64,000 bases of DNA, from the NCBI RefSeq assembly GCF_010499455.1, contig NZ_JAAGOH010000001.1, positions 62,001-126,000 on the forward strand, in the 5' to 3' direction. The number at the start of each line of letters is the position of its first letter. The first letter of the stretch is position 1. Origin of the DNA: Ideonella livida (lineage in GTDB: Bacteria > Pseudomonadota > Gammaproteobacteria > Burkholderiales > Burkholderiaceae_C). Under the pieces are notes generated by a model that had not been told where the DNA came from, ran no database searches, and saw only the letters and a program-made list of their open reading frames with translations. This document shows positions 1,791 through 31,064 of this stretch, piece after piece. The translations under genes and the position numbers were made by a program.

Positions 1791-2579
1791 ATGGCCCGCC
1801 GCCCCGCCCCCGCCACCCCCATCGCCCCACTTCCCCCAGAGGGGGTGGACGGTGGCGATGGCATGGAGGGCCCCGAGGCCGCCGGCATCCGCCCGTCGGA
1901 GGCCACCACCACCGCCCGGATCGTGGCCTCGGTCACTGCGGCCATCGTCGAGCGGCGTCTGATGCCCGGCACTCGGCTGGTGGAGCAGCAGATCGCCGAC
2001 ATCTTCAAGGTCTCGCGCACCGTGGTGCGCCAGGCACTCAACCAGCTCAGCCGCGACCGGCTGGTGACGCTGGAACCCGCCCGTGGCGCCTTTGTGCGCG
2101 AACCCAGCGTGCAGGAGGCACGCGAGGTCTTTGAGGTGCGTGCGCTGCTGGAAAGCGCCATGGTGCGCGAGCTGTGCGGGCGCATCACCCCGTCCCAGGT
2201 CGAGCAGCTGCGCCATCACCTGGCGGACGAGGCCGAGGCTGTGCTGCGCACCGATGTGAGCGGTCGCACCCGCCTGCTGGCCGACTTCCATGTGGTGCTG
2301 GCCCGCCTGCTGGGCAACGAGACCCTGGCCGAGTTGCTGGGCGACCTGCTGTCGCGCTCTCAGCTGATTTCGTTGATGTACCAGTCCTCGCACTCGGCCG
2401 AGCACTCCCAGGCCGAGCATGTGGCCATCGTGGACGCCCTGGCCCGGGGCGACGCCGAGGCCGCCGTGGCGCTGATGACCGCGCACCTGGGCAATGTGGA
2501 GCGCAACCTGCGCCTGCAGCCCCGCATCCATGACCTGCAGCAATTGCTGCAGCCTGATACCAACGGAGCCTTGCCATGA
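1791..2579 (+). CDS. GntR family (FCD subfamily) transcriptional regulator of purine catabolism
   Basis: A 262-residue regulator with an N-terminal winged helix (about 43-105; helix-turn-helix around LVEQQIADIFKVSRTVVRQAL) and a C-terminal FCD ligand domain (110-240). Candidate metal or ligand residues Asp165 and His167 (ADFH), His210 and His232 are present. The first 35 residues are proline-rich and probably disordered. Open frame exists upstream to 1674, but the -10 box and both operators lie there, so ATG 1791 is preferred. Its stop overlaps the puuE start (ATGA at 2576-2579), so the two are translationally coupled. Likely an autoregulated repressor of both divergent units, relieved by a purine breakdown intermediate; the ligand is unknown. 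Confidence 0.88.
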   Translation: MARRPAPATPIAPLPPEGVDGGDGMEGPEAAGIRPSEATTTARIVASVTAAIVERRLMPGTRLVEQQIADIFKVSRTVVRQALNQLSRDRLVTLEPARGAFVREPSVQEAREVFEVRALLESAMVRELCGRITPSQVEQLRHHLADEAEAVLRTDVSGRTRLLADFHVVLARLLGNETLAELLGDLLSRSQLISLMYQSSHSAEHSQAEHVAIVDALARGDAEAAVALMTAHLGNVERNLRLQPRIHDLQQLLQPDTNGALP

Positions 2580-3559
2580 CCGAGCCTGCCTCTGGCGACG
2601 TGCGCTACCCGCGTGACCTGCGCGGCCACGGCCGCCACCCGCCTCATGCCCGCTGGCCCGGAAACGCCCGGGTGGCGGTGCAGTTCGTGCTGAACTACGA
2701 GGAAGGCGGCGAGAACTCGGTGCTGCACGGCGATGCCGGCAGCGAACAGTTCCTCTCCGAGATGTTCAACCCCGCCGCCTACCCGGCCCGCCACCTCAGC
2801 ATGGAGGGCATCTACGAATACGGTTCCCGCGTGGGGGTGTGGCGCCTGCTGCGCGAGTTTGAGAAGCGCGGCCTGCCGCTCACGGTGTTCGGGGTCAGCA
2901 TGGCGCTGGCCCGCTGCCCGGAGGTCACAGCCGCCTTCATCGAGCTGGAGCACGAGATCGCCTGCCACGGCTGGCGCTGGATCCACTACCAGAACACCGA
3001 CCCGGCCACCGAGCGTGCCCACATGGACCAGGGCATGGCCATCCTGAGGCAGCTGGCCGGCGCGGCAGACCCCCACCGCCGCCTGCACGGCGCGGGCTGG
3101 TACACCGGTCGCGACAGCCCCAACACCCGTCGCCTGGTGGCCGACTACGGTGGCTTTGAGTACGACAGCGACTACTACGGCGACGACCTGCCCTTCTGGC
3201 TGCAGGTGAAAAAGACCGACGGCAGCCTGGCCCCGCACCTGGTGGTGCCCTACACCCTGGACTGCAACGACATGCGCTTTGCGCTACCCCAGGGTTTCAG
3301 CCACGGCGACGAATTCTTCGAGTACCTGCGTGACACCTTTGACGTACTCTATGCCGAAGGCGACGAACGCCCGGCGATGATGAGCGTGGGCATGCACTGC
3401 CGCCTGCTGGGCCGCCCGGGCCGCATGCGGGCGCTGCAGCGCTTTCTGGACCACCTCGAAGCCCACAGCCGGGTCTGGGTGGCGCGCCGCGTGGACATCG
3501 CCCGCCACTGGAAAGCCACCCACCCCTTCCGCCCCGACACCGCCTTCGTGTGGGAATGA
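2576..3559 (+). CDS. puuE: Allantoinase PuuE (polysaccharide deacetylase-like)
   Basis: Hydrolyses allantoin to allantoate. The 327-residue protein belongs to the polysaccharide-deacetylase (NodB) fold group used by the metal-independent bacterial allantoinase, not the amidohydrolase AllB type. Visible signatures are VQFVLNYEEGGE near the N-terminus, GIYEYGSRVGVWRLL, HEIACHGWRWIHYQ (the CHGW motif is typical), GWYTGRDSPNTRRLV, and MMSVGMHCRLLGRPGR near the end. It starts with an ATGA overlap with the regulator gene and ends with an ATGA overlap with the next gene (3556-3559), so three genes are tightly coupled. No signal peptide; cytoplasmic. Confidence 0.93.
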   Translation: MTEPASGDVRYPRDLRGHGRHPPHARWPGNARVAVQFVLNYEEGGENSVLHGDAGSEQFLSEMFNPAAYPARHLSMEGIYEYGSRVGVWRLLREFEKRGLPLTVFGVSMALARCPEVTAAFIELEHEIACHGWRWIHYQNTDPATERAHMDQGMAILRQLAGAADPHRRLHGAGWYTGRDSPNTRRLVADYGGFEYDSDYYGDDLPFWLQVKKTDGSLAPHLVVPYTLDCNDMRFALPQGFSHGDEFFEYLRDTFDVLYAEGDERPAMMSVGMHCRLLGRPGRMRALQRFLDHLEAHSRVWVARRVDIARHWKATHPFRPDTAFVWE

Positions 3560-5427
3560 GCCGCCCGACCATGCCGCCTGCCCTGCCCACCGCCCCGCCT
3601 GCCGCCCTCCCCCCGGGTCTGCCGCCGCTCCCCGACCTGAGCGCCTTGAACGCCGCCGACCTTGCCGGCTTCGTACAGCAGCTGGCCGGCATCTACGAGC
3701 ACTCTCCCTGGATCGCCGAGCGGGCCTGGGCACAGCGCCCGACCGGCGGCTACAGCAGCCTGGCCGCGCTGAAGGTGGCCCTGGCCGCGGTGGTGCGCGA
3801 AGCCTCTGAAGCCGAACAACTCGGCCTGATCCGCGCCCACCCGGAGCTGGCGGGCAAGGCCATGGTGGCACGCACGCTCACCGCTGAAAGCACAAACGAG
3901 CAGACCACCTCGGGCTTGACGCATTGCAGCCCGGAAGAGTTCGCCACGCTGCAACGGCTCAACGCCGACTACAACGCCCGTTTCGGCTGGCCCTTCATCC
4001 TGGCGGTGCGCGGCCCGCGTGGCGACGGCCTGACCCGCCAGCAGATCATCGATACCTTCGCCCGCCGCCTGGGCGGCACGCCAGCGTTTGAGCGCGCCGA
4101 GTGCCTGCGCAACATCCACCGCATCGCCGAGATCCGGCTGAACGACCGTTTCGGCTTTGACCCGGTGCTGGGCCGCCAGGTCTGGGACTGCGCCGAGCGC
4201 CTGGCCCGCCGCCCCGACGGCCGCTGGGTGTCCGACCCCGGCTTTGCCGAGGCCGGTCAACTCACCGTGACCTACGGCACCGCCGCCCACCAGGCCTGCC
4301 AGCAGCAATTGCTGCTGTGGATGCACGAATGCGGCTTTGACGAGGTGCGCATCGACGCCGTGGGCAATGTGGTGGGTCTGTACCGGGGCGAGGACCCCAC
4401 CGCCCCGCGCCTGCTCACCGGCAGCCATTTCGACACCGTGCGCAACGGTGGCCGATACGACGGCCGACTGGGCATCTTTGTGCCCCTGGTGGCCGTGCGG
4501 GCCCTGTGGCAGGCCGGGCGCCGCCTGCCTTTCGACCTCGAGGTGGTGGCTTTTGCAGAAGAAGAAGGCCAGCGCTTTGCCGCCACCTTCCTGGGCTCCA
4601 GCGCGCTCACCGGCCAGTTCAACCCCGCCTGGCTGACGCAGACCGACGCCCAGGGCATCCCCCTGGCGCAGGCCATGCGCGAGGTTGGTCTGCCCGGCAC
4701 GATGGCCGCCATCGCCGCCGAAGCCCGCGACCCGACCCGGTACCGGGGCTTTGTCGAGGTGCACATCGAGCAGGGCCCGGTACTCAACCAGCTGGACCTG
4801 CCGCTGGGCGTGGTCAGTGCCATCAACGGCAGCCGCCGCTTCACCGGCGAGGTGCTGGGCACCGCCTGCCACGCCGGCACCACGCCCATGGACCGCCGCC
4901 ACGACGCCGCCCTGGCTGTGGCCGAACTGGCCCTGGCCGTGGAAGCCCGCGCCCGCCGCACCCCCGAGGCCGTGGGCACCGTGGGCATCCTGGAGGTGCC
5001 CGGCGGCTCCATCAACGTGGTACCGGGCCGCTGCCGCTTCAGTCTGGACCTGCGCGCACCCCAAAACAGTGCAAGAGACGCCATGGTGGACGAGGCCATG
5101 GCCCAGTTACGCACCATTTGCGAGCGTCGCGGGGTGTCTTTCCAGCTCACCGAGACGATGTCCGCCGCCGCCGCGCCCAGCGATGGTGCGCTGCAGGCCC
5201 ATTGGGCCGCCGCGGTGCAGGCCTTGGGCCTGCCGGCCTTCACCCTGCCCAGCGGCGCCGGCCATGACGCGATGAAGCTGCATGAGGTGATGCCGCAGGC
5301 CATGCTGTTTGTGCGCGGTGGCAACGCCGGCATCAGCCATAACCCGCTGGAGACCGTCACCGCCGACGACGGCGACCTCGCGGTGCGCGCCTTCCTGCAA
5401 CTGCTGGCACGGCTGGCGACGTCCTGA
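3556..5427 (+). CDS. Fused OHCU decarboxylase (UraD) and allantoate amidohydrolase (AllC)
   Basis: One 623-residue polypeptide carries two enzymes of the pathway. Residues about 30-205 are UraD: the catalytic His95 sits in RAHPELAGK, followed by LNADYNARFGWPFILAVRG and NDRFG. Residues about 215-623 are an M20 amidohydrolase of the allantoate/N-carbamoyl amino acid type. Metal-site residues are His291 (GSHFDTV), Asp302 (GRYDGRLG), Glu336/Glu337 (EEEGQRF), His403 (VEVHIEQGP) and the late His in SHNPLE. UraD makes S-allantoin from OHCU; AllC acts two steps later, with PuuE in between. ATG 3556 is chosen over GTG 3550 because it forms an ATGA overlap with puuE. About 28 proline-rich residues precede the first domain. 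Confidence 0.93.
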   Translation: MSRPTMPPALPTAPPAALPPGLPPLPDLSALNAADLAGFVQQLAGIYEHSPWIAERAWAQRPTGGYSSLAALKVALAAVVREASEAEQLGLIRAHPELAGKAMVARTLTAESTNEQTTSGLTHCSPEEFATLQRLNADYNARFGWPFILAVRGPRGDGLTRQQIIDTFARRLGGTPAFERAECLRNIHRIAEIRLNDRFGFDPVLGRQVWDCAERLARRPDGRWVSDPGFAEAGQLTVTYGTAAHQACQQQLLLWMHECGFDEVRIDAVGNVVGLYRGEDPTAPRLLTGSHFDTVRNGGRYDGRLGIFVPLVAVRALWQAGRRLPFDLEVVAFAEEEGQRFAATFLGSSALTGQFNPAWLTQTDAQGIPLAQAMREVGLPGTMAAIAAEARDPTRYRGFVEVHIEQGPVLNQLDLPLGVVSAINGSRRFTGEVLGTACHAGTTPMDRRHDAALAVAELALAVEARARRTPEAVGTVGILEVPGGSINVVPGRCRFSLDLRAPQNSARDAMVDEAMAQLRTICERRGVSFQLTETMSAAAAPSDGALQAHWAAAVQALGLPAFTLPSGAGHDAMKLHEVMPQAMLFVRGGNAGISHNPLETVTADDGDLAVRAFLQLLARLATS

Positions 5428-20584: not shown

Positions 20585-21277
20585 TCAGATGGACATCATC
20601 TGCCGCACGCCGTCAGCCTCCATGTCCCGGCCAGCACCGCGGGCGATGATCTCACCACGCTCCATCACCAGGTACTGGTCGGCCAGCTCGGCGGCGAAGT
20701 CGTAGTACTGCTCCACCAGCACGATGGCCATGTCGCCGCGGTCGGCCAGCATGCGGATGACGCGCCCGATGTCCTTGATGATGCTGGGTTGGATGCCCTC
20801 GGTGGGCTCGTCCAGCAGCAGCAGCCGCGGCGCCGGGGCCAGGGCCCGGGCAATGGCCAGCTGCTGCTGCTGCCCGCCGGAGAGGTCGCCCCCACGGCGC
20901 TGCAGCATCTGCTTGAGCACTGGGAACAGCTCGAAGAGCTCGGCCGGGATGGGGGTGCTGGCCGGCTTGTAGGCCAGACCCATGCGCAGGTTCTCCTCCA
21001 CCGTCAGGCGGCCGAAGATCTCGCGGCCTTGCGGCACATAGCCCACGCCGGCACGCACGCGGTCGTAGGGCGTGTGGTGGGTGATCTCGTGCTCACCCAG
21101 GCGGACCTGGCCGGTCTTGACCGGCACCACACCCATCAGGCTCTTGAGCAGCGTGGTCTTGCCCACGCCGTTGCGGCCGAGCACCACGGTGACCTCACCC
21201 CGCCGCGCCTCAAAGGAGACACCGCGCAGGATGTGGCTGCCGCCGTAGTACTGGTTCAGACTCTCAACGTTCAGCAT
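20585..21277 (-). CDS. urtE: Urea ABC transporter ATP-binding subunit UrtE
   Basis: A 230-residue LivF-type ATPase. Walker A GRNGVGKTT (34-42), signature LSGGQQQQLAIARAL, Walker B LLLLDEPTEGIQPSI. The EGIQPSIIKDIG motif is characteristic of UrtE and separates it from LivF (LSPxxV). It is the fifth gene of urtABCDE, 21 bases after urtD. Confidence 0.94.
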   Translation of the reverse strand: MLNVESLNQYYGGSHILRGVSFEARRGEVTVVLGRNGVGKTTLLKSLMGVVPVKTGQVRLGEHEITHHTPYDRVRAGVGYVPQGREIFGRLTVEENLRMGLAYKPASTPIPAELFELFPVLKQMLQRRGGDLSGGQQQQLAIARALAPAPRLLLLDEPTEGIQPSIIKDIGRVIRMLADRGDMAIVLVEQYYDFAAELADQYLVMERGEIIARGAGRDMEADGVRQMMSI

Positions 21278-21298: not shown

Positions 21299-22180
21299 TC
21301 AGCGGCCCAGATAGACTTCGACGACCTTCTCGTTGGCCTGCACCTCGGCCAGGGTGCCCTCGGCCAGCACGCTGCCCTCGTGCAGCACGGTCACTTTCTT
21401 CCACCCCTGGGTGAGCTCGCCGACGAACTTCATGTCGTGCTCCACCACCACCAGGCTGTGCCGGCCCTCCAGGCTCAGGAACAGCTCGGCGGTGCGTTCG
21501 GTTTCCTCATCGGTCATGCCGGCCACCGGCTCGTCCAGCAGCAGCAGCTTGGGGTCCTGCATCAGCAGCATGCCGATCTCCAGCCATTGCTTCTGACCAT
21601 GGCTGAGCAGGCCGGCGGTGCGCTGGGCCTGGGGCAGCAGGTGGATGAGGGTGAGGATCTCGCCGATGCGGTCGAGCTGGGCCCCGGTCAGGCGGTGCAG
21701 CAGGCCGGCGCGCACCCGGCGGTCGGCCTTGAGCGCCAGCTCCAGGTTCTCGAACACGCTGAGCTGCTCATAGACGGTGGGTTTCTGAAACTTGCGGCCG
21801 ATGCCGATCTGGGCGATCTCACTCTCGCGCAGGCGCAGCAGGTCGATGTTGCTGCCGAAGCTGGCTGTGCCCAGGTCGGGCCGGGTCTTGCCGGTGATGA
21901 CGTCCATCATCGTGGTCTTGCCCGCGCCGTTGGGGCCGATGATGCAGCGCAGTTCACCCACGTTGACCGAGAGGTTCAGGCTGTTGAGGGCCTTGAAGCC
22001 GTCGAAGCTGACGGTGATGCCCTCCAGGTAGAGGGCCACGCCATGGGCAAAGTCGGGCTGCCCGGCGGTGAGCAGGCGCCCGTAGGCGGCGCCACGGTCG
22101 CCCGAGGCGCCGGCTTCGGCCACTTTGGCCCGGTAATCGGCCAGCGCCTTGGCACCGGCTTCCATGAGGTCGGGGGTCAT
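21299..22180 (-). CDS. urtD: Urea ABC transporter ATP-binding subunit UrtD
   Basis: A 293-residue LivG-type ATPase with an extra about 45 N-terminal residues. Walker A GPNGAGKTT, Walker B LLLLDEPVAGMTDEE, and a signature reading LLSHGQKQWLEIG, where His replaces the usual Gly, which is typical of UrtD. ATG 22180 overlaps the end of urtC by four bases (ATGA at 22177-22180), so translation is coupled. Works with UrtE on the cytoplasmic face of UrtBC. Confidence 0.94.
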   Translation of the reverse strand: MTPDLMEAGAKALADYRAKVAEAGASGDRGAAYGRLLTAGQPDFAHGVALYLEGITVSFDGFKALNSLNLSVNVGELRCIIGPNGAGKTTMMDVITGKTRPDLGTASFGSNIDLLRLRESEIAQIGIGRKFQKPTVYEQLSVFENLELALKADRRVRAGLLHRLTGAQLDRIGEILTLIHLLPQAQRTAGLLSHGQKQWLEIGMLLMQDPKLLLLDEPVAGMTDEETERTAELFLSLEGRHSLVVVEHDMKFVGELTQGWKKVTVLHEGSVLAEGTLAEVQANEKVVEVYLGR

Positions 22181-23304
22181 GCGCGCTCCTCCGGCTTGGA
22201 ACCCTTGAACTTCTGCACCAGGCCCACCAGGCCCTGGGGCAGGAACAGCGTGACGGCAATGAACAGCGCGCCCAGGAAGTAAAGCCAGAACTCGGGGAAG
22301 ACCTGGGTGAACCAGCTCTTGGCGCCGTTGACGAAGAAGGCACCGACGATGGGGCCGATGAGGGTGGCGCGCCCGCCCACGGCCGCCCAGATGGCGATCT
22401 CGATGGAGGCGGCAGGGCTCATCTCGCTGGGGTTGATGATGCCCACCTGCGGCACGTAGAGCGCGCCGGCCACGCCGCACATCACCGCCGAGAGGGTCCA
22501 GATGGCGAGCTTGTAAGCCAGCGGGTCGTAGCCGGTGAACATCACCCGGCTCTCGGCGTCGCGGATGGCCTGCAGCACGCGGCCGAACTTGCTGTGCACG
22601 ATCCAGCGCGCCATCAGGTAGCAGCCGATCAGCGTGAGCCCGGTCAGCACGAACAGCACCATGCGGGTGGAGGGCTGCTGCAGCGGGATGTCGAGGATGC
22701 GCTTGAAGTCGGTGAAGCCGTTGTTACCGCCAAAGCCGGTTTCGTTGCGGAAGAACAGCAGCATGGCGGCAAAGGTCATGGCCTGCGTGATGATGGAGAA
22801 ATACACGCCCTTGATGCGGCTGCGGAAGGCGAAGAAGCCGAAGATGAACGCCAACAGGCCGGGCACCAGCAGCACCAGCAGGGCCTGGGCGATGAAGCTG
22901 TCGCTGAGCGCCCAGTGCCAGGGCAGCGTCTTCCAGTCCAGAAAGACCATGAAGTCGGGCAGGTGCGACTTGTACTGGCCATCGGTGCCGATCTGGCGCA
23001 TCAGGTACATGCCCATGGCATAGCCCCCCAGCGCGAAGAACAGGCCGTGGCCCAGGCTGAGGATGCCGGTGTAGCCCCAGATCAGGTCCATGGCCAGCGC
23101 GCAGATGGCGTAGCACATGATCTTGGCGGTGAGGGCCACGCCGTAGTCGCTCAGGTGGAACAGGCTGCCCTCGGGCACCACCAGGTTGAGCACAGGCACC
23201 AGCACGGTGACGGCAAGCAGCGCGGCCAGCAGGCCGGTCCAGCCGGCCGGGCTGAGCAGCAGGCCACGCTTGGGGACGGGAAGGGTCGGAGGGATGGCGG
23301 TCAT
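22177..23304 (-). CDS. urtC: Urea ABC transporter permease UrtC
   Basis: A 375-residue LivM-type permease with about ten hydrophobic segments. Recognisable stretches are YAICALAMDLIWGYTGILSLGHGLFFALGG (core GYTGILSLGHG), the FGGNNGFTDFK loop, and the coupling loop RVLQAIRDAESRVMFTGYDPL that meets the ATPases. UrtC differs from LivM in this GNNG loop. Starts 78 bases after urtB. Confidence 0.94.
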   Translation of the reverse strand: MTAIPPTLPVPKRGLLLSPAGWTGLLAALLAVTVLVPVLNLVVPEGSLFHLSDYGVALTAKIMCYAICALAMDLIWGYTGILSLGHGLFFALGGYAMGMYLMRQIGTDGQYKSHLPDFMVFLDWKTLPWHWALSDSFIAQALLVLLVPGLLAFIFGFFAFRSRIKGVYFSIITQAMTFAAMLLFFRNETGFGGNNGFTDFKRILDIPLQQPSTRMVLFVLTGLTLIGCYLMARWIVHSKFGRVLQAIRDAESRVMFTGYDPLAYKLAIWTLSAVMCGVAGALYVPQVGIINPSEMSPAASIEIAIWAAVGGRATLIGPIVGAFFVNGAKSWFTQVFPEFWLYFLGALFIAVTLFLPQGLVGLVQKFKGSKPEERA

Positions 23305-23382: not shown

Positions 23383-24996
23383 TCAGACCTCGCGCCCCTT
23401 CATGGCAAACAGGCCCTGGGGTCGCTTCTGGATGAAGACCACGATGACCACCAGCACCATGATCTTGGCCAGCACCGCACCGGCCCAGCCCTCCAGCAGC
23501 TTGCCCAGCACGCCCAGGCCCAGCGCGGCATAGACGGTGCCGGCCAACTGGCCCACGCCGCCCAGCACCACGACCATGAAGCTGTCGACGATGTAGTTCT
23601 GGCCCAGGTCGGGGCCGACGTTGCCGATCTGGCTGAGGGCGCAGCCGGCCAGGCCGGCCAGGCCGGCGCCCAGGCTGAAGGCGTAGGTGTCGATGCGCGC
23701 GGTGTGGATGCCCACGCAGGCGGCCATGCGGCGGTTCTGGGTGACACCGCGCACGAACAGGCCCATGCGGGTGCGGGCAATCATCAGGGCCACCGCCGCC
23801 AGCACGGCCAAGGCGAAGACGATGATGGCAATGCGGTTGAAGGGCAGGGTGAGGTTGCTGGTGACGGCCACGCCGCCCGACAGCCAGGCCGGGTTCTCCA
23901 CCGGCACGTTCTGCGCGCCAAACAGCGTGCGCACCGCCTGCATCAGCACCAGGGAGATGCCCCAGGTGGCCAGCAGCGTCTCCAGCGGCCGGCCGTAGAG
24001 CCAGCGCAGCACGGTGCGCTCCAGCGCCGCGCCCACCAGGGCAGCACTGAAGAAGGACACCGGGATGGCCACCAGCACGTAGGCATCAAAGGCGCCGGGC
24101 AGCCAGGCACGGAACAGGTTCTGCACCACGTAGGTGGCGTAGGCACCGATCATCATCAGCTCGCCGTGGGCCATGTTGATCACGCCCATCAGGCCATAGG
24201 TGATGGCCAGGCCCAGGGCCACCAGCAGCAGGATGGAGCCCAGGCTGATGCCGGTGAAGACCACGCCCAGGCGCTCACCCCAGGCCAGGCGGGCGGAGAC
24301 CTTGTCAAAGGACGCCAGCAGGGCGCCGCGCACGGCGGGGTCGGCCTCCGGTCCGGCGCCGGCCGGGCTCAGTTCACCCAGGCGCTCCTGCAGCAGGCTG
24401 CGCACCTGGGGGCTGTCGCTCTCGCCCAGGGCGCGGGCGGCCTCCAGACGGCGGGCGGGTTCGTCATGGGCCAGCAGCACGCTGGCGCGCATGAGCCGGA
24501 GCTGTTCCAGCAGGGCCGGATCGGTCTCGGCCGCGAAGGCCTTGTCCAACAAAGGCAGCTGGCTGGGCTCCAGGCTCTGGCGGACCAGCTCGGCCACCGC
24601 CTCGCGGCGCTGCGCAACCTCGGGGGACAGGAGCTTGAGCGCGGCCAGGGTCGATTCCAGGGCGGCGCGCATGCGGTTGTTGTTGACCACGTCCTCCGCC
24701 TCGGGCGGCAGGCTCGCGCTCTGGCCGGTGGTCGCGTCCACCACCTTGTCGCCGTCGATGAGCAGGACCTGTCGGGCGGTGAACTTCACGCTGTCGTCCA
24801 GCAGGGCCCGCACCAGGGCCGGCAGGCCCGCGTCGGCCCGGGCCGAGGCCTCGGCCAGCGCGGCCAGGCGCTCGTCGGTGTCGCCCGACGCGATGGCCAG
24901 CGCCTGCTCAGGCGTCAGCGCCTGGGCCGGCAGGTGAAGGAGCAGGCCGCTGGCGGCGGCCAGACAGGACAGGAGCAGTCGGCGGAGCAGGCGCAT
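23383..24996 (-). CDS. urtB: Urea ABC transporter permease UrtB
   Basis: A 537-residue LivH-type permease with the long N-terminal periplasmic domain that marks UrtB: a signal peptide (LLLSCLAAASGLLLHLPAQA), then about 220 helical residues, then the membrane domain (about 255-530). The permease part shows LAITYGLMGVINMAHGELMMIGAYA (core GVINMAHGELMMIGAY) and VRGVTQNRRMAACVGI, the ATPase-facing loop. The role of the extra domain is not known. A perfect 17-bp hairpin sits in front of it, between urtA and urtB. Confidence 0.94.
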   Translation of the reverse strand: MRLLRRLLLSCLAAASGLLLHLPAQALTPEQALAIASGDTDERLAALAEASARADAGLPALVRALLDDSVKFTARQVLLIDGDKVVDATTGQSASLPPEAEDVVNNNRMRAALESTLAALKLLSPEVAQRREAVAELVRQSLEPSQLPLLDKAFAAETDPALLEQLRLMRASVLLAHDEPARRLEAARALGESDSPQVRSLLQERLGELSPAGAGPEADPAVRGALLASFDKVSARLAWGERLGVVFTGISLGSILLLVALGLAITYGLMGVINMAHGELMMIGAYATYVVQNLFRAWLPGAFDAYVLVAIPVSFFSAALVGAALERTVLRWLYGRPLETLLATWGISLVLMQAVRTLFGAQNVPVENPAWLSGGVAVTSNLTLPFNRIAIIVFALAVLAAVALMIARTRMGLFVRGVTQNRRMAACVGIHTARIDTYAFSLGAGLAGLAGCALSQIGNVGPDLGQNYIVDSFMVVVLGGVGQLAGTVYAALGLGVLGKLLEGWAGAVLAKIMVLVVIVVFIQKRPQGLFAMKGREV

Positions 24997-25153: not shown

Positions 25154-26419
25154 TTACTTGGTGGCCGGCACGTTCTTCTTGCCCTTGTTCTCGGGGATGT
25201 AGTCGCTCCACGGGTCGGCCTGGACCGGGCCCTTGGTCTTCCACACCACGTTGAACTGGCCGTCAGCGCGCACCTCGCCGATGAACACCGGCTTCCAGAG
25301 GTGGTGGTTCTCCTTGTCCATGGTGGACATGAAGCCGCCCGGGGCCTGGAAAGTCTGACCCGCCATCGCGGCGATGACCTTGTCGGTGTCCGTGGACTTG
25401 GCCTTGGCCACGGCCTGGGCCCACATGTGGATGCCGATGTAGGTGGCCTCCATCGGGTCGTTGGTCAGCGGCTTGTCCATGTGACCCGGGATCTTCTTGG
25501 CCTTGGCGTAGTCGCTCCACTTCTTGACGAAGGCGGCATTGGCCGGGCTCTTGACGCTCATGAAGTAGTTCCAGGCGGCCAGATGGCCCACCAGCGGCTT
25601 GGTGTCCACGCCGCGCAGCTCCTCCTCACCCACCGAGAAGGCCACCACCGGCACGTCGGTCGCCTTCAGGCCCTGGTTGCCCAGCTCCTTGTAGAAGGGC
25701 ACGTTGGAGTCGCCGTTGATGGTCGAGACCACCGCGGTCTTCTTGCCTTCAGAGGAGAACTTCTTGATCTTGGCGATGATGGACTGGTAGTCCGAGTGGC
25801 CGAAGGGGGTGTACTCCTCCATGATGTCGGCATCGGCCACGCCCTTGCTCTTGAGGAAGGCGCGCAGGATCTTGTTGGTGGTGCGGGGGTACACATAGTC
25901 GGTGCCCAGCAGCACAAAGCGCTTGGCGCTGCCACCGTCCTTGCTCATCAGGTATTCGACCGCCGGGATGGCCTGCTGGTTGGGCGCGGCGCCGGTGTAG
26001 AACACGTTCTTGCTCAGCTCCTCACCCTCGTACTGCACGGGGTAGAACAGCAGGGAGTTGGTCTCTTCGAACACCGGCAGCACCGACTTGCGGCTCACCG
26101 AGGTCCAGCAGCCGAACACGGCGGCCACCTTGTCCTGGGTGATGAGCTGCTTGGCCTTCTCGGCGAACAACGGCCAGTTGGAGGCCGGATCGACCACCAC
26201 GGCCTCGAGCTTCTTGCCCATCACGCCGCCGGCGGCGTTGATCTCCTCGATGGTCATCAGCGCCACGTCCTTGAGGACGGTCTCGGAGATGGCCATGGTG
26301 CCCGAGAGGCTGTGCAGGACACCGACCTTGATGGTGTCGGCGGCCTGGGCCAGCGAGCTCAGGCCGAAGGTGGCGGCGGCAGCGGCCAGCGCGGTGAGGG
26401 AGCGGCGGGTGATCTGCAT
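25154..26419 (-). CDS. urtA: Urea ABC transporter substrate-binding protein UrtA
   Basis: A 421-residue periplasmic urea receptor. The N-terminus MQITRRSLTALAAA is a twin-arginine-like signal with cleavage after AQA at about 29; the mature protein begins DTIKVGVLHSLSGTMAISE, the UrtA/AmiC start. Later motifs VFGCWTSVSRKSVLPVFEE and YPVQYEGEELSKNVFYTGAAPNQQ (core YPVQYEGEE) are specific for urea and short-chain amide binders. ATG 26419 has GGAG upstream. It follows the response regulator gene by 161 bases that carry a LuxR-type palindrome. First gene of urtABCDE. Confidence 0.95.
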   Translation of the reverse strand: MQITRRSLTALAAAAATFGLSSLAQAADTIKVGVLHSLSGTMAISETVLKDVALMTIEEINAAGGVMGKKLEAVVVDPASNWPLFAEKAKQLITQDKVAAVFGCWTSVSRKSVLPVFEETNSLLFYPVQYEGEELSKNVFYTGAAPNQQAIPAVEYLMSKDGGSAKRFVLLGTDYVYPRTTNKILRAFLKSKGVADADIMEEYTPFGHSDYQSIIAKIKKFSSEGKKTAVVSTINGDSNVPFYKELGNQGLKATDVPVVAFSVGEEELRGVDTKPLVGHLAAWNYFMSVKSPANAAFVKKWSDYAKAKKIPGHMDKPLTNDPMEATYIGIHMWAQAVAKAKSTDTDKVIAAMAGQTFQAPGGFMSTMDKENHHLWKPVFIGEVRADGQFNVVWKTKGPVQADPWSDYIPENKGKKNVPATK

Positions 26420-26542: not shown

Positions 26543-26558
26543 TACGCAGACTGGCGTA
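26543..26558. promoter_or_regulatory. 7-2-7 palindrome upstream of urtA, candidate LuxR/NarL-type response regulator site
   Basis: TACGCAGACTGGCGTA holds the inverted pentamers TACGC and GCGTA separated by six bases. Read as two heptamers, TACGCAG and TACGCCA face each other over two bases, the 7-2-7 layout known for NarL-type regulators (consensus heptamer TACYYMT). It lies 124 bases upstream of the urtA ATG and just past the stop of the LuxR-type regulator gene. I did not see a second such full palindrome. Binding is inferred. Confidence 0.55.
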
Positions 26559-26580: not shown

Positions 26581-27570
26581 TCAACCGCCCTCGCCGCCTC
26601 CCCGCAGGCGGCCCAGGGCCATGGCCGCGGCGGCGGTGCGGCTGGTCACCCCCAGCTTCTCGAAGACATGCTCCAGGTGCTTGTGCACGGTGCGGGGGCT
26701 GGTGCCCAGGATGTCGCCGATGTCGCGGTTGGTCTTGCCCTGGATGACCCAGTGCAACACCTCCGCTTCGCGCGCGGTGAGCACCGGGAAGGCCAGGGCC
26801 AGCGCCTCCAGCAGCGCCGCCTCGCTGGCCTCGCGCAGCACCACCAGCCACTCCCCTTCGCTGCTGCCGTCGGGCAGGCGGTGCAGGGCCAGGCTCAGGC
26901 GGTTGGCCCCGCGGGCCACGGTCAGGCTCTGGGGCTCGGCGCCGGCACGCCGGCGCAGGCTCTCCCGGGCGATCCAGGCCGCCACCTCGGCCGGGGTGGT
27001 GACCTCCGGAACGCCGGGAAAGTAGCTCTCCAGCAGGCGGCGCGCCAGGGCGGTCTGCCACAGGCGTCGGCCGTCGCGCTCGCGCACCACCACGGTGGCG
27101 TGCCCGAAGGCGTCCAGCGCGTTGCGGGCCTGGCGCTGGGCCCGGGCGGTCTGCAGGTGGGCGGCCAGGCGCGCCAGGACCTCGCGGGTGCGGATGGGCT
27201 TGGTCACATAGTCCGTGCCGCCGGCGGCAAAGGCCTGGACCACATGCTCCGCATCCGACAGCCCGGTCATGAAGACGATGGGGATGGGGGCCGTCTCCGG
27301 GTCGGCCTTGAGCCGGCGGGCCACCTCAAAGCCGTCCAGGCCGGGCATCACCGCATCCAGCAGGATGATGTCGGGCGCGTCCTGCGCGGCCAGCCGCAGC
27401 GCGGCCTCGCCGTGGGTGGCCACCAGCACGGTGTAGCCCGACTCGTCGAGCGCGTCGTGCAGCACGGCCAGGTTGTCGGGCACGTCATCGACGATCAGCA
27501 CCAGATCGCCCGTCTCACGGGCGTCGGCCCCCGCGCCGCTGTCGGCCAGGGCAGGTTCATCGACGGTCAT
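26581..27570 (-). CDS. Response regulator with REC and LuxR-type DNA-binding domain
   Basis: A 329-residue regulator. Receiver domain about 22-140: acidic pair Asp28-Asp29, phosphorylation site Asp72 in LLDAVMPGLDGFE, switch Thr102 and Lys124 in YVTKPI. Residues 145-255 are a linker region of unclear fold, then a LuxR/NarL helix-turn-helix about 262-322 (LTAREAEVLHWVIQGKTNRDIG, core GKTNRDIGDILGTSPRTV). ATG 27570 overlaps the kinase stop (ATGA at 27567-27570), so kinase and regulator are coupled partners. Faces straight into urtA, which is the obvious target. Confidence 0.93.
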   Translation of the reverse strand: MTVDEPALADSGAGADARETGDLVLIVDDVPDNLAVLHDALDESGYTVLVATHGEAALRLAAQDAPDIILLDAVMPGLDGFEVARRLKADPETAPIPIVFMTGLSDAEHVVQAFAAGGTDYVTKPIRTREVLARLAAHLQTARAQRQARNALDAFGHATVVVRERDGRRLWQTALARRLLESYFPGVPEVTTPAEVAAWIARESLRRRAGAEPQSLTVARGANRLSLALHRLPDGSSEGEWLVVLREASEAALLEALALAFPVLTAREAEVLHWVIQGKTNRDIGDILGTSPRTVHKHLEHVFEKLGVTSRTAAAAMALGRLRGGGEGG

Positions 27571-30500
27571 GGGGTCTCCTTCAGGGCTTGGCGCAGCTGG
27601 GCCTCCAGGGCATCCAGCCGGAAATCACGCACCAGGCCGCGGGCCTGGTGGACAAATTGTTGGGCGTCGGGCTCGACGGGACTGAGCCCATCGAGCAGGC
27701 GCTGGACGCCGCGGGGATAGCCCCGCTCCACCTGGGCCAGCAGGGCCTGCAAAGTGGCGGTGCCCAGGGCCCGGGCGGCCTGCGCCGGTGGCGGGCCGCC
27801 CGCAACGGGCTCGGCAGGCGGCGGTGCCCCTGCGACGGCCGGAGCCGTCCAGCGCAGGTCCAGCCGCTGGCCCAGCCAGTCCAGCAGCTCGGTCAGGCGC
27901 ACGGGTTTGACCAGGAAATCGGCGGCGGTGATGCCGACGTCGTTCTCCAGTCCCTTGTCAAAGGCGTTGGCAGAGACGACTGCAGCCGGCGCCCGGCTCA
28001 GGCCGTCGCGGCGCAAGCGCCGCAGGGTCTCCCAACCGTCGATGCCGGGCATGGCCAGGTCCATGAAGATCGCATCCGGCCGCAGGGTGGCCAGGCGCTG
28101 CAGCGCCTCCTCGCCCGAGGCGGCCTGCTCGATGTGGAAGCCCAGTGGGGTGAGCAGGTCACGCAGCAGCGCCCGGTCGGCCTCCTCGTTGTCCACCACC
28201 AGAATGGTTCTGCGCGGTCCTTCATAGCCACCGCGCCGTGCCACGGGATGGGCCTCGTGCAGCGCCTCACCGGCCACCTCGGGCAGGAACAGCCGCAGGC
28301 TGAAGGTGCTGCCCTGCCCCGGTGTGCTGTGCACCGCCATCTCGCCCCCCATCAACTCGGTGAGCATCTTGCTGATGGTCAGACCCAGGCCGGTGCCGGC
28401 GGCGGCGGCGGCCCCCGCGGCCGAGCCCCGCACGAAGGGTTCGAAGACCCGGGCCAGCTCCTGGGGGCTCATGCCGGGCCCGGAGTCCTGGATCTCCACC
28501 CGGGCCATGTCGCGGGCATGGCGCAGGCGCAGGCAGACCTCACCCGACTGGGTGAACTTGACCGCGTTGCCCAGCAGGTTGATGAGGATTTGGCGCAGCC
28601 GGCGCTCGTCGGCCCGCACGACCTCAGGCAGGCGCTCGCCGAAGTCGCGGACGAAGCGAATGCCCTTGGCCTGGGCCTGGAGCTCGAACATGCGGGCCAG
28701 TTCCTCCAGGGTGCGGGCAAAGCGCATGGGCCTCACCTCCAGCGAGAGCTTGCCGCTCTCGATGCGGGCCACGTCCAGCGTGCCCTCGATCAGGCCCAGC
28801 AGGTGGTCGCCGCCCCTGCGGATGACGCTGACGGCCTGGCGCCGGTGGGCGGGCATGGCCTCGTCCTCCTCCAGCAGCTGGGCATAGCCGAGGATGCTGT
28901 TGAGCGGGGTGCGCAGCTCGTGGCTGATGGCGGTGATGTAGCGGGTCTTGGCCTGGTTGGCCGCGTCGGCCTGGCGCTTGGCCTCCTGCAGCTGCAGGTC
29001 GGTCTGGCGGTGGGAGTCGATCTCGCGCATCAACGCCTCGGTCTGGCGGGTGGTTTCTTCCTGGGCCACCGCGCGGCTGCGGTGGGCCAGCACCAACCAC
29101 CAAGCCACCACCGAGGCCACGAGCAGCAGCGCGGCATAGGCCTTGAGGAAGCCGCCCTGCAGCGCGGGCTCCACCACGGCGCGCAGCGCCGCGTCCTCGC
29201 CCGCCAGCCGGGCCAGGGACTGGTGGTAGAGCAGGCCGAAGAGCGCCCCGAGCGCCGGCATGATCAGGGCCATGAGCAGCAGGAACTGGCCCAGCCCCGT
29301 GTCCACCCGCTGTCCCATGCGCCGCGGCAGCAGGCGGCCCAGCAGGGCCGCCCAGGCGCGCCAGACCTGATCCACCAGACGCGGCTGGGGCTTGCAGCGG
29401 TCCTGGCAGCGGGCGTCCAAGGTGCAGCACAGCGAGCAGATGGGACCGCCATAGGCCGGGCAGGCGGCCATGTCCGGCGACTCGAAGCGACCGCCACACA
29501 CCACGCATCGGCTGCGCACCGGCGCCCGCAGCCGGGCGTAGGGGCCGTGGTGGTCCGCGGGCCCAGGCGCCTCGGGCACCGGCTCCACCGGTCGGGCCAG
29601 GTAGTAGCGGCCCCGGGTCCACCAGGCCAGCAGTGGCGCGGTGACCAGGGCCGTGGCCAGGGCGATCAGGGCGGAGAAGGCCTGCGCCAACGGTCCGAAG
29701 GCGCCCAGGTGGGCGGCCACCGACAGCAGCGACGCCAGGCCCATCGCCCCCACGCCCACCGGGTTGATGTCATGCAGGTAGGCGCGACGGAACTCGATGC
29801 CTGGCGGGCTCCAGCCCAGGGGCTTGCTGATCACCAGGTCGGCCACCACGGCCATGATCCAGCTGATGGCAATGTTGGAGAACAGGCCCAGCACGCCGCC
29901 CAGCGCCTGGAACACGTCGAGCTCCATGAGCATCAACGCGATCAGGATGTTGAATACCATCCAGACCACCCGCCCCGGGTGGCTGTGGGTGACGCGGGAG
30001 AAGAAGTTGGACCACGCCAGCGAGCCCGCATAGGCGTTGGTGACGTTGATCTTGAGCTGGGAGACGATGACAAAGAGTGCCGTCACGCCCACCGCCCAGC
30101 TGTAGTGCGGCATGAGGTATTCGTAGGCCGCCAGGTACATCTGGTTGGGGTCCACCGCCCGCTCGGCCGGCACCATGTGCTGCAAGGCCAGAAAGGCCAG
30201 CAGCGCGCCGCCCAGCATCTTGAGCACGCCCGGCACCACCCAGCCCGGGCCGCCCACCAGCACCGCCAGCCACCACCGCCGTGGCTGCCCCTGGCGCTCG
30301 GGCATGAATCGCAGGTAGTCCACCTGCTCACCCATCTGGGTGATCAGCGCCACCCCCACCGTCATGGCGGCGCCAAATGCCTGCAGCTGGAAGGCAGCGG
30401 GGCCGCTGGTGCCCTGCCCGGCATAGCTGCTGAGGTCCTGCAGGAGTCCGGGATGGTGGTGGAAGACCACCAGATACGGCAGGATCAGCAGGGCCAGCCA

Positions 30501-31064
30501 CAAGGGCTGGGTCCAGACCTGCAGGCGGCTGATGGCAGTGACCCCGTGGGTGGCCAGCGGCACCACCACCAGGGCGCAGACCAGATAGCCCCAGGCCGGT
30601 GGCAGGTCAAAGGCCAGCTCCAGCGCATAGGCCATCACCGCCGCCTCCAGGGCGAAGAAGATGAAGGTGAAGCTGGCGTAGATCAACGAGGTGAGCGTGG
30701 AGCCCAGGTAGCCGAAGCCGGCGCCCCGGGTGAGCAGGTCCATGTCCACCCCATGCCGGGCGGCATACACGCTGATGGGCCAGCCCGCCAGGGCAATGAT
30801 CAGCCCCGTGGCCAGGATGGCCCAGAAGGCGTTGATGAAGCCGTAGCGCACCAGCAGCGTGGCGCCCACCGCCTCCAGCACCAGGAAGGACGAGGCGCCG
30901 AAGGCGGTGTTGGCCACCCGCCAGGCCGACCACTTGCGAAAGCCGTGCGGGGTGAAGCGCAGGGCATAGTCCTCCAGCGATTCGCTGGCCACCCAGGCGT
31001 TGTAGTCGCGCCGGATGTTGATGACCCGCTGCTGGGCGGCGGGAGGGGGGGACGGGGAGCTCAA
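27567..31064 (-). CDS. NCS1 permease-like sensor histidine kinase with receiver domain
   Basis: A 1165-residue fusion. Residues 20-485 are an NCS1 cytosine/purine permease-like domain with about 12 membrane segments. Residues 520-557 hold eight cysteines (520, 523, 535, 543, 546, 547, 553, 557), probably a metal-binding module. Two more membrane segments (about 592-613, 638-660) lead by a coiled coil to the kinase: His715 in TAISHELRTPLNS, N-box NLLGNAVKF, G boxes DSGPGM and GTGLGLTI. A receiver domain (about 952-1065) has Asp1002. The tail contains HQARG at 1139-1143, which resembles a histidine phosphotransfer motif. The start is TTG 31064 with GGAGG upstream; no ATG occurs in frame before residue 108. 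By analogy with CbrA (SSS transporter plus kinase) it may sense a nucleobase or ureide and drive urtABCDE through the coupled regulator. Ligand and transport activity are unknown. Confidence 0.9.
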   Translation of the reverse strand: MSSPSPPPAAQQRVINIRRDYNAWVASESLEDYALRFTPHGFRKWSAWRVANTAFGASSFLVLEAVGATLLVRYGFINAFWAILATGLIIALAGWPISVYAARHGVDMDLLTRGAGFGYLGSTLTSLIYASFTFIFFALEAAVMAYALELAFDLPPAWGYLVCALVVVPLATHGVTAISRLQVWTQPLWLALLILPYLVVFHHHPGLLQDLSSYAGQGTSGPAAFQLQAFGAAMTVGVALITQMGEQVDYLRFMPERQGQPRRWWLAVLVGGPGWVVPGVLKMLGGALLAFLALQHMVPAERAVDPNQMYLAAYEYLMPHYSWAVGVTALFVIVSQLKINVTNAYAGSLAWSNFFSRVTHSHPGRVVWMVFNILIALMLMELDVFQALGGVLGLFSNIAISWIMAVVADLVISKPLGWSPPGIEFRRAYLHDINPVGVGAMGLASLLSVAAHLGAFGPLAQAFSALIALATALVTAPLLAWWTRGRYYLARPVEPVPEAPGPADHHGPYARLRAPVRSRCVVCGGRFESPDMAACPAYGGPICSLCCTLDARCQDRCKPQPRLVDQVWRAWAALLGRLLPRRMGQRVDTGLGQFLLLMALIMPALGALFGLLYHQSLARLAGEDAALRAVVEPALQGGFLKAYAALLLVASVVAWWLVLAHRSRAVAQEETTRQTEALMREIDSHRQTDLQLQEAKRQADAANQAKTRYITAISHELRTPLNSILGYAQLLEEDEAMPAHRRQAVSVIRRGGDHLLGLIEGTLDVARIESGKLSLEVRPMRFARTLEELARMFELQAQAKGIRFVRDFGERLPEVVRADERRLRQILINLLGNAVKFTQSGEVCLRLRHARDMARVEIQDSGPGMSPQELARVFEPFVRGSAAGAAAAAGTGLGLTISKMLTELMGGEMAVHSTPGQGSTFSLRLFLPEVAGEALHEAHPVARRGGYEGPRRTILVVDNEEADRALLRDLLTPLGFHIEQAASGEEALQRLATLRPDAIFMDLAMPGIDGWETLRRLRRDGLSRAPAAVVSANAFDKGLENDVGITAADFLVKPVRLTELLDWLGQRLDLRWTAPAVAGAPPPAEPVAGGPPPAQAARALGTATLQALLAQVERGYPRGVQRLLDGLSPVEPDAQQFVHQARGLVRDFRLDALEAQLRQALKETP

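Follow-up and report, generated by a model that had tools for sequence, protein, structure and literature searches.

What does a sensor kinase respond to when its input domain looks like a complete transporter and its gene precedes a set of urea-uptake genes? The question is raised by a 64,000-nucleotide stretch of the Ideonella livida genome (contig NZ_JAAGOH010000001.1, positions 62,001 to 126,000; hereafter the window), in which positions 27567..31064 hold the gene for a hybrid histidine kinase. A first-pass annotation had described its product as a sensor kinase with an NCS1 purine/cytosine permease as input domain, and had suggested that a purine-related signal drives urea uptake through it. 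The gene is real: an open reading frame of 1165 codons with a TTG start, lying on the minus strand, which that annotation had not given. Gene order and a recurring DNA dyad link it to a urea-import operon, but the purine signal is not supported. We propose, with moderate confidence, that the protein is a sensor of urea or short amides, whose NCS1-fold domain would act through the kinase, a LuxR-type regulator and the dyad. The kinase probably reports urea or a similar small amide, rather than purines, and thereby switches on genes for uptake and breakdown.

The input domain is related to NCS1 transporters

Standard domain models do not recognize the input region. A Pfam scan of the kinase protein gave nothing over cut-off N-terminal of residue 700; PF02133 matched none of 17 family members, even at an E-value of 1, and its 12 matches in 60 relatives did not include the kinase. 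PF00474, the model for sodium:solute symporters (SSS), had no match in the protein, and sequence searches of the PDB with the window domain, the A1 family profile, L134 and L137 returned no match. Since PF02133 fails on all 17 members, profile-to-profile and fold comparisons were used. An hhalign comparison of these members with 11 PF02133 proteins (excluding L134, a stand-alone permease) gave a probability of 97.0 and an E-value of 1.1e-10 over 371 columns, and the probability rose to 98.4 when the family profile was compared with L134 singly. With two small NCS1 subsets the probabilities were low, at 32.4 and 39.0. An SSS control set of 15 rows scored 2.1 (E 0.023), or 3.1 (E 0.014) after removal of two bad rows, one in the wrong frame and one a scrap. 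The first-pass expectation that the domain would be NCS1-like on profile search is thus borne out between profiles and fails with PF02133 itself.

Fold comparison led to the same family. AlphaFold2 (AF2) was run on residues 1-690 with 61 aligned sequences, drawn from 62 diverse kinases that included the one in the window (L077 was left out), and gave a model with a mean pLDDT of 79.9 and a pTM of 0.80. The five best Foldseek matches were all chains of Mhp1 or CodB (E 2.6e-8 to 1.7e-6), with other LeuT-fold proteins next, from E 3.9e-6. Counted manually in the model, the permease-like domain has 12 helical spans, of which the first transmembrane helix (TM1) is broken (47-59/61-74); as delimited by AF2, Foldseek and hhalign, it covers residues about 19-492 (29589..31010, minus strand, as are all kinase features below). 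In addition, the stand-alone permease L134/L035 from a genome of the same genus, which is over the PF02133 cut-off, matches the kinase domain directly (28% identity, E 1.9e-7). The input domain is therefore NCS1 in fold and ancestry. Judged from the residues tested below, however, it appears not to be an ordinary NCS1 symporter.

The remainder of the protein is that of a hybrid histidine kinase. The AF2 model places two further membrane spans at residues 591-620 and 625-660 (29085..29294), leading into the kinase helix. Pfam then identifies HisKA at 706-771 with His715 (28752..28949, E 6.9e-17), HATPase_c at 819-927 (28284..28610, E 2.6e-28) and a receiver at 954-1062 with Asp1002 (27879..28205, E 1.8e-20). 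Both phosphorylation residues lie where the first-pass annotation had put them, and the roughly 12 spans and two additional ones that it named are present.

Residues of the pocket and the sodium site

In Mhp1 and CodB, a tryptophan on TM3 and an aromatic residue on TM6 stack the base (PMC9379551). Taking reference residues from that source and from PDB alignments, we examined a MAFFT alignment of 167 family rows, cut at 700 residues, of which 164 are distinct (three duplicates). All ten ordinary NCS1 rows in it have tryptophan at the TM3 position, where the family has phenylalanine (Phe136, 160/167) or leucine (7/167). On TM8, hhalign and MAFFT agree in placing Lys338 (codon 30051..30053), invariant in all 167 rows, at the side-chain position of the Na2 sodium site occupied by Ser312 in Mhp1 and Thr278 in CodB; Ile339 stands beside it in 166, so the Ser/Thr side chains of the site are not kept. 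Glu140 takes the position of Mhp1 Gln121 (166/167), and the pocket region as a whole is strongly conserved across the family. The first-pass annotation had made retention of the substrate and sodium residues the point to check; at the TM3 and Na2 positions they have been replaced.

A lysine in this place has a precedent in the sensor kinase CbrA, whose Lys196 occupies the Na2 site and for which a switch that depends on protons has been proposed (PMC13022988). By analogy, a proton-driven or sodium-free switch is plausible in the NCS1-fold kinase.

A cysteine module precedes the kinase

Between the permease-like domain and the two further spans lies a module of eight cysteines, absent from the first-pass annotation, with the spacing C520-x2-C523-x11-C535-x7-C543-x2-C546-C547-x5-C553-x3-C557 (29394..29507). 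All eight are kept in 109 of 109 aligned sequences. In the wider set each appears in 161 or 162 of 167 rows; the six exceptions are rows cut at 700 residues, and all six have the CxxCC motif further along. AF2, for which 39 of 81 module fragments were put through folding, models the module as short strands and a helix. A Foldseek search against PDB folds gave no significant match (best E 0.21), the nearest being mostly RING, FYVE and LIM zinc fingers. As regards a STAC linker, Pfam gave no match over cut-off at residues 500-700, and the prediction is of strands and a short helix, not of a four-helix bundle; no direct comparison with STAC was made.

Searched for in 120 Burkholderiales genomes, the module gave 23 matches below E 1e-11, all in open frames of at least 1,130 amino acids. 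The four that were examined, including the two most divergent, all carry an NCS1-like domain, as judged by eye and with tblastn. The module probably binds metal, and may constitute a small metal site coupling the permease to the kinase.

Genomic distribution and neighborhood

The kinase was matched in 27 of 60 genomes near that of the window (its own included) and in 54 of 398 evenly drawn Pseudomonadota genomes, although one of these 54 is a fragment and another matches weakly within a short frame. Among the matches listed from genome contigs, a relative is encoded by at least 585 of the 597 stretches that fit the pattern. From the 60 match rows of the phylum-wide draw, 54 loci were examined for context; those left out were the window, two loci already in the set, two fragments and the stand-alone G385:C40, which was analysed apart. 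Neighborhoods were counted in the 51 loci flanked on each side by 5 kb or more, leaving aside three with short flanks, two of them without a marker gene.

All 51 loci carry genes for a urea transporter, urease, formamidase or aliphatic amidase: 32 have urt with amidase, seven urt with urease, six urease only, four urt only and two amidase only. The nearest such marker lies at a median of 271 bp from the kinase gene and within 3 kb in 50 loci. For comparison, a rough analytic estimate of finding a marker within 3 kb of any gene is 1.4%, if 5 Mb are taken to contain four clusters of 8 kb. Markers are also present in 68 of all 80 named loci, or 49 of the 56 that have both flanks, and in 25 of 29 loci of the window's relatives, a count that includes the window and has uneven flanks. 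A similar regulator gene is found within 400 bp in 48 of the 51 phylum-wide loci and in all 56 named loci with both flanks. Representatives of UreA, UreC, UreG, UrtA, UrtB, UrtD, FmdA and AmiE pass their NCBIfam cut-offs. The kinase family is strongly linked to the use of urea and amides.

Several loci have features of their own. L264:7016-11263 and L265:6623-10813, read from the sequence, have extra receivers and what look like phosphotransfer parts in addition to the NCS1-like domain, cysteine module and kinase. Next to the aliphatic amidase of L258 is a gene for a ClpB-like AAA ATPase of about 350 amino acids (L258:16604-17674), and one of the same size and place is seen in L210, L212, L247 and L256. 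In genome G007, a relative of the same genus, the kinase gene is split into halves about 41 kb apart on one strand (L036 near 4840 and L046 near 4060), as if a large element had been inserted; no common direct repeat of ten or more bases was found in the stretches compared. The match to a second-type kinase, L042:3973-7106, continues in another frame near residue 907, and this gene may be frameshifted.

In the window itself, the gene order given by the first-pass annotation (kinase, overlapping LuxR regulator, urtA-E) is confirmed. The response regulator, a receiver joined to a LuxR-type DNA-binding domain by Pfam (26581..27570, minus strand), overlaps the kinase gene by 4 nucleotides. It is followed on the same strand by the five subunits of the urea ATP-binding cassette (ABC) transporter, all over their NCBIfam cut-offs: the binding protein urtA (25154..26419, TIGR03407, start proposed), urtB (23383..24996, TIGR03409), urtC (22177..23304, TIGR03408), urtD (21299..22120, TIGR03411; its start is approximate, the open frame reaching 22480) and urtE (20585..21277, TIGR03410). 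The genes rdgC and secA are located upstream of the kinase gene, and the urease alpha gene of this genome is on another contig. The urate pathway that had been called nearby is represented by allantoinase PuuE (2576-3559) and a fused ureidoimidazoline decarboxylase/allantoate amidohydrolase (3550-5427); both are indeed in the window, but more than 20 kb from the kinase.

Phylogeny of the kinases and their stand-alone relatives

A tree of 79 rows was built with 66 representative kinases out of the 167, and these form one clade (support 100/99). The nearest outgroup is a stand-alone permease, L259 (99/88), placed unsurely on a long branch. In its locus (L259:8949-13984) the permease gene is followed by genes for a double carbon-nitrogen hydrolase, an AmiC-like binding protein and AmiR, and the permease is possibly an NCS1 amide transporter. 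A search of 299 genomes for further stand-alone relatives of L259 at E 1e-30 gave only L259 itself and kinase-length open frames.

Within the clade, the first-branching kinases have only formamidase at their loci, the place of one of them, L044, being weakly supported. Loci with urt plus amidase come next, and urease/urt loci, including that of the window, are nested. This order best fits a sensor of the amide group that formamide, acetamide and urea have in common.

A putative operator

Screening for dyads upstream of urtA, the kinase gene and ureA yielded TACGC-N6-GCGTA and TACGT-N6-ACGTA. The 5.26-Mb genome of the window has a single strict match to TACGY-N6-RCGTA, between the regulator gene and urtA and unmentioned in the first-pass annotation, whereas a reversed-pattern control occurs 15 times. 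This site, the putative operator TACGC-N6-GCGTA (26543..26558, no strand assigned), lies 123 bp upstream of the ATG proposed for urtA (26419). Of the 43 urtA upstreams of the window's type, 33 have the strict dyad, where 20 dinucleotide shuffles gave a mean of 0.05; so do 18 of 41 second-type urtA upstreams and 34 of 166 kinase upstreams. Altogether, 170 loci (window included) contain 85 sites in 84 different 46-bp contexts, 82 of them upstream of urtA, fmdA or the kinase. Since fmdA was unused in pattern discovery, its upstreams offer a separate view: the dyad is found at 8 of 38 fmdA matches, six of them away from kinase upstreams. We infer that the LuxR-type regulator binds this dyad.

Control of urtA in the window by sigma-54 was considered and rejected: the three one-mismatch sites in the window are at chance level and none is upstream of urtA, one being inside urtA on the opposite strand. 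No sigma-54 site was found in the 43 urtA upstreams of related loci. Among kinase upstreams, 17 of 166 have sigma-54-like sites, where letter shuffles gave 0.15; among ureA upstreams, 11 of 87 have them, where shuffles gave 0.3.

What the kinase may sense

The observations above suggest the following chain of events. An NCS1-descended domain in the inner membrane would bind urea or a short-chain amide, such as formamide or acetamide, in its central pocket, and might also transport it. Binding, or a proton-driven swing in which Lys338 sits where sodium would, may alter the conformation of the domain. The change would pass through the eight-cysteine module and the two extra spans to the kinase, with His715 and Asp1002, and from there to the LuxR-type regulator, which would bind TACGYC-N4-GRCGTA and activate urtA-E and, elsewhere, fmdA and the kinase promoter.

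Several results weigh against this proposal or narrow it. The residue correspondences rest on sequence alignment at below 20% identity. At the TM6 aromatic position (Mhp1 Trp220, CodB Phe204) the family has Leu240 in 166 of 167 rows when counted from Asp249, yet both alignments have a one-residue gap there and 43 of the 167 rows have an aromatic residue elsewhere in 236-248; this position was therefore not relied on. Lysine at 338 is also present in the stand-alone relatives L134 and L158, and L259 has arginine; the lysine is thus not confined to sensors. Seven named loci (L047, L072, L073, L076, L103, L116 and L120) lack a marker, as do L236, L264 and L265. The strict dyad is upstream of ureA in 0 of 87 cases, and urease control is not supported, although with up to one mismatch allowed 15 of 87 ureA upstreams have a site, against 2.7 in letter shuffles. 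Most of the 82 sites are no independent test, the pattern having been picked from those same upstreams. Sixteen genomes with the kinase hold 0-8 dyad sites (G022 has none), and 16 without it hold 0-11, if anything more; other proteins may thus use similar sites, and the pattern alone is no marker of the system. Finally, general nitrogen control may also act, in some members of the family too, considering the sigma-54-like sites and the listing of Bradyrhizobium urtABC with an RpoN site (PMC13207237).

Three other signals were weighed. The kinase might be an indirect sensor, reporting the occupancy or flux of the Urt transporter, the pH of the cytoplasm or the proton motive force by way of Lys338, or metal or redox state by way of the cysteine module. 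The proximity of its gene to those of an ABC transporter in most loci, the ionisable lysine at the Na2 position and the eight invariant cysteines, with their weak and non-significant Foldseek resemblance to zinc fingers, agree with this. Some members, however, have no urt on their locus (those with urease only, 6/51, or amidase only, 2/51), and the pocket region is strongly conserved; we regard an indirect signal as unlikely. A larger ureido compound that yields urea, such as allantoin or hydantoin, is a poorer candidate still, and one we consider improbable. NCS1 transporters carry both compounds, an allantoinase is encoded in the window and Glu140 stands at the Mhp1 Gln121 position, but the formamidase and aliphatic-amidase loci, those of the first-branching kinases included, offer no evident reason for a ureide response. 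A purine or nucleobase sensor, binding uracil, hydantoin or a purine and inducing urea uptake for purine scavenging as the first-pass annotation had it, is highly improbable: the NCS1 ancestry of the domain and the purine-breakdown genes of the window speak for it, whereas the base-stacking tryptophan is replaced, those genes, looked for in the window alone, are distant, the formamidase and amidase neighbors do not suit purine use, and the nearest stand-alone relative found lies beside amidase, AmiC and AmiR genes.

Comparison with known systems

The NCS1-fold kinase architecture is real and conserved, and seems not to have been described before: our search of the open-access literature found no NCS1-type kinase. 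To our knowledge, direct sensing of urea by bacteria is also poorly described. The sensor of urea or short amides proposed here could represent a second class of LeuT-fold transporter-kinases across Pseudomonadota, with an NCS1-fold receptor for these ligands, a lysine in place of sodium, a new eight-cysteine coupler and an operator of its own, and thus a direct membrane sensor of urea. We advance this broader claim tentatively, its odds being about even. CbrA has been described as one of the rare transporter-kinases (PMC13022988). If the claim is correct, the family adds a class with another fold and linker and, as in CbrA, a lysine at the sodium site, and studies of how common soil and water bacteria use the nitrogen of urea and amides gain a ligand, a pocket, a coupling module and a DNA site to test.

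Among the closest known systems are the SLC5-STAC kinases CbrA, CrbS and RpuS, which likewise fuse a LeuT-fold transporter domain to a kinase controlling nutrient uptake or use. The lysine in the Na2 site is shared with CbrA (PMC13022988), and CrbR, like the regulator here, is of LuxR type and needs an inverted repeat (PMC5715377). In those kinases, however, the transporter is SLC5 rather than NCS1, the linker is STAC, where the present kinase has a cysteine module with two spans, and the nutrients are histidine, acetate and, reportedly, pyruvate, unlike the urea and amide context of the present family. In the Kuenenia ammonium sensor kinase a transporter domain also serves as a nitrogen sensor, but it has the ammonium transporter fold and senses ammonium (PMC5764959). 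Transceptors of yet another fold are treated in PMC11109136.

A similar gene layout is that of urtABCDE operon III of Ectopseudomonas guguanensis G3, where a hybrid kinase, a LuxR-type regulator and urtABCDE are found together, with fmdA as the next locus tag (PMC13296017); the likeness noted here is one of layout, and the passages seen of that paper make no mention of an NCS1 domain, a ligand or an operator. An NCS1 transporter reported to import metformin (PMC13390362) suggests that NCS1 proteins can take small N-C-N compounds that are not nucleobases; it has no kinase and is likened here by description only. From Mhp1 and CodB, with which it shares the fold, the 12 spans, the broken TM1, a conserved Asp and Arg after TM6 and profile-to-profile homology, the input domain differs in falling outside PF02133, in the replaced stacking tryptophan, in Lys338/Ile339 in place of the Na2 side chains and in its fusion to a kinase. 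In AmiC/AmiR, a soluble receptor with an antiterminator, and in fmdCABDEF of Methylophilus, the uptake and hydrolysis of urea and short amides are regulated as well; unlike the system described here, these two operate with no membrane kinase.

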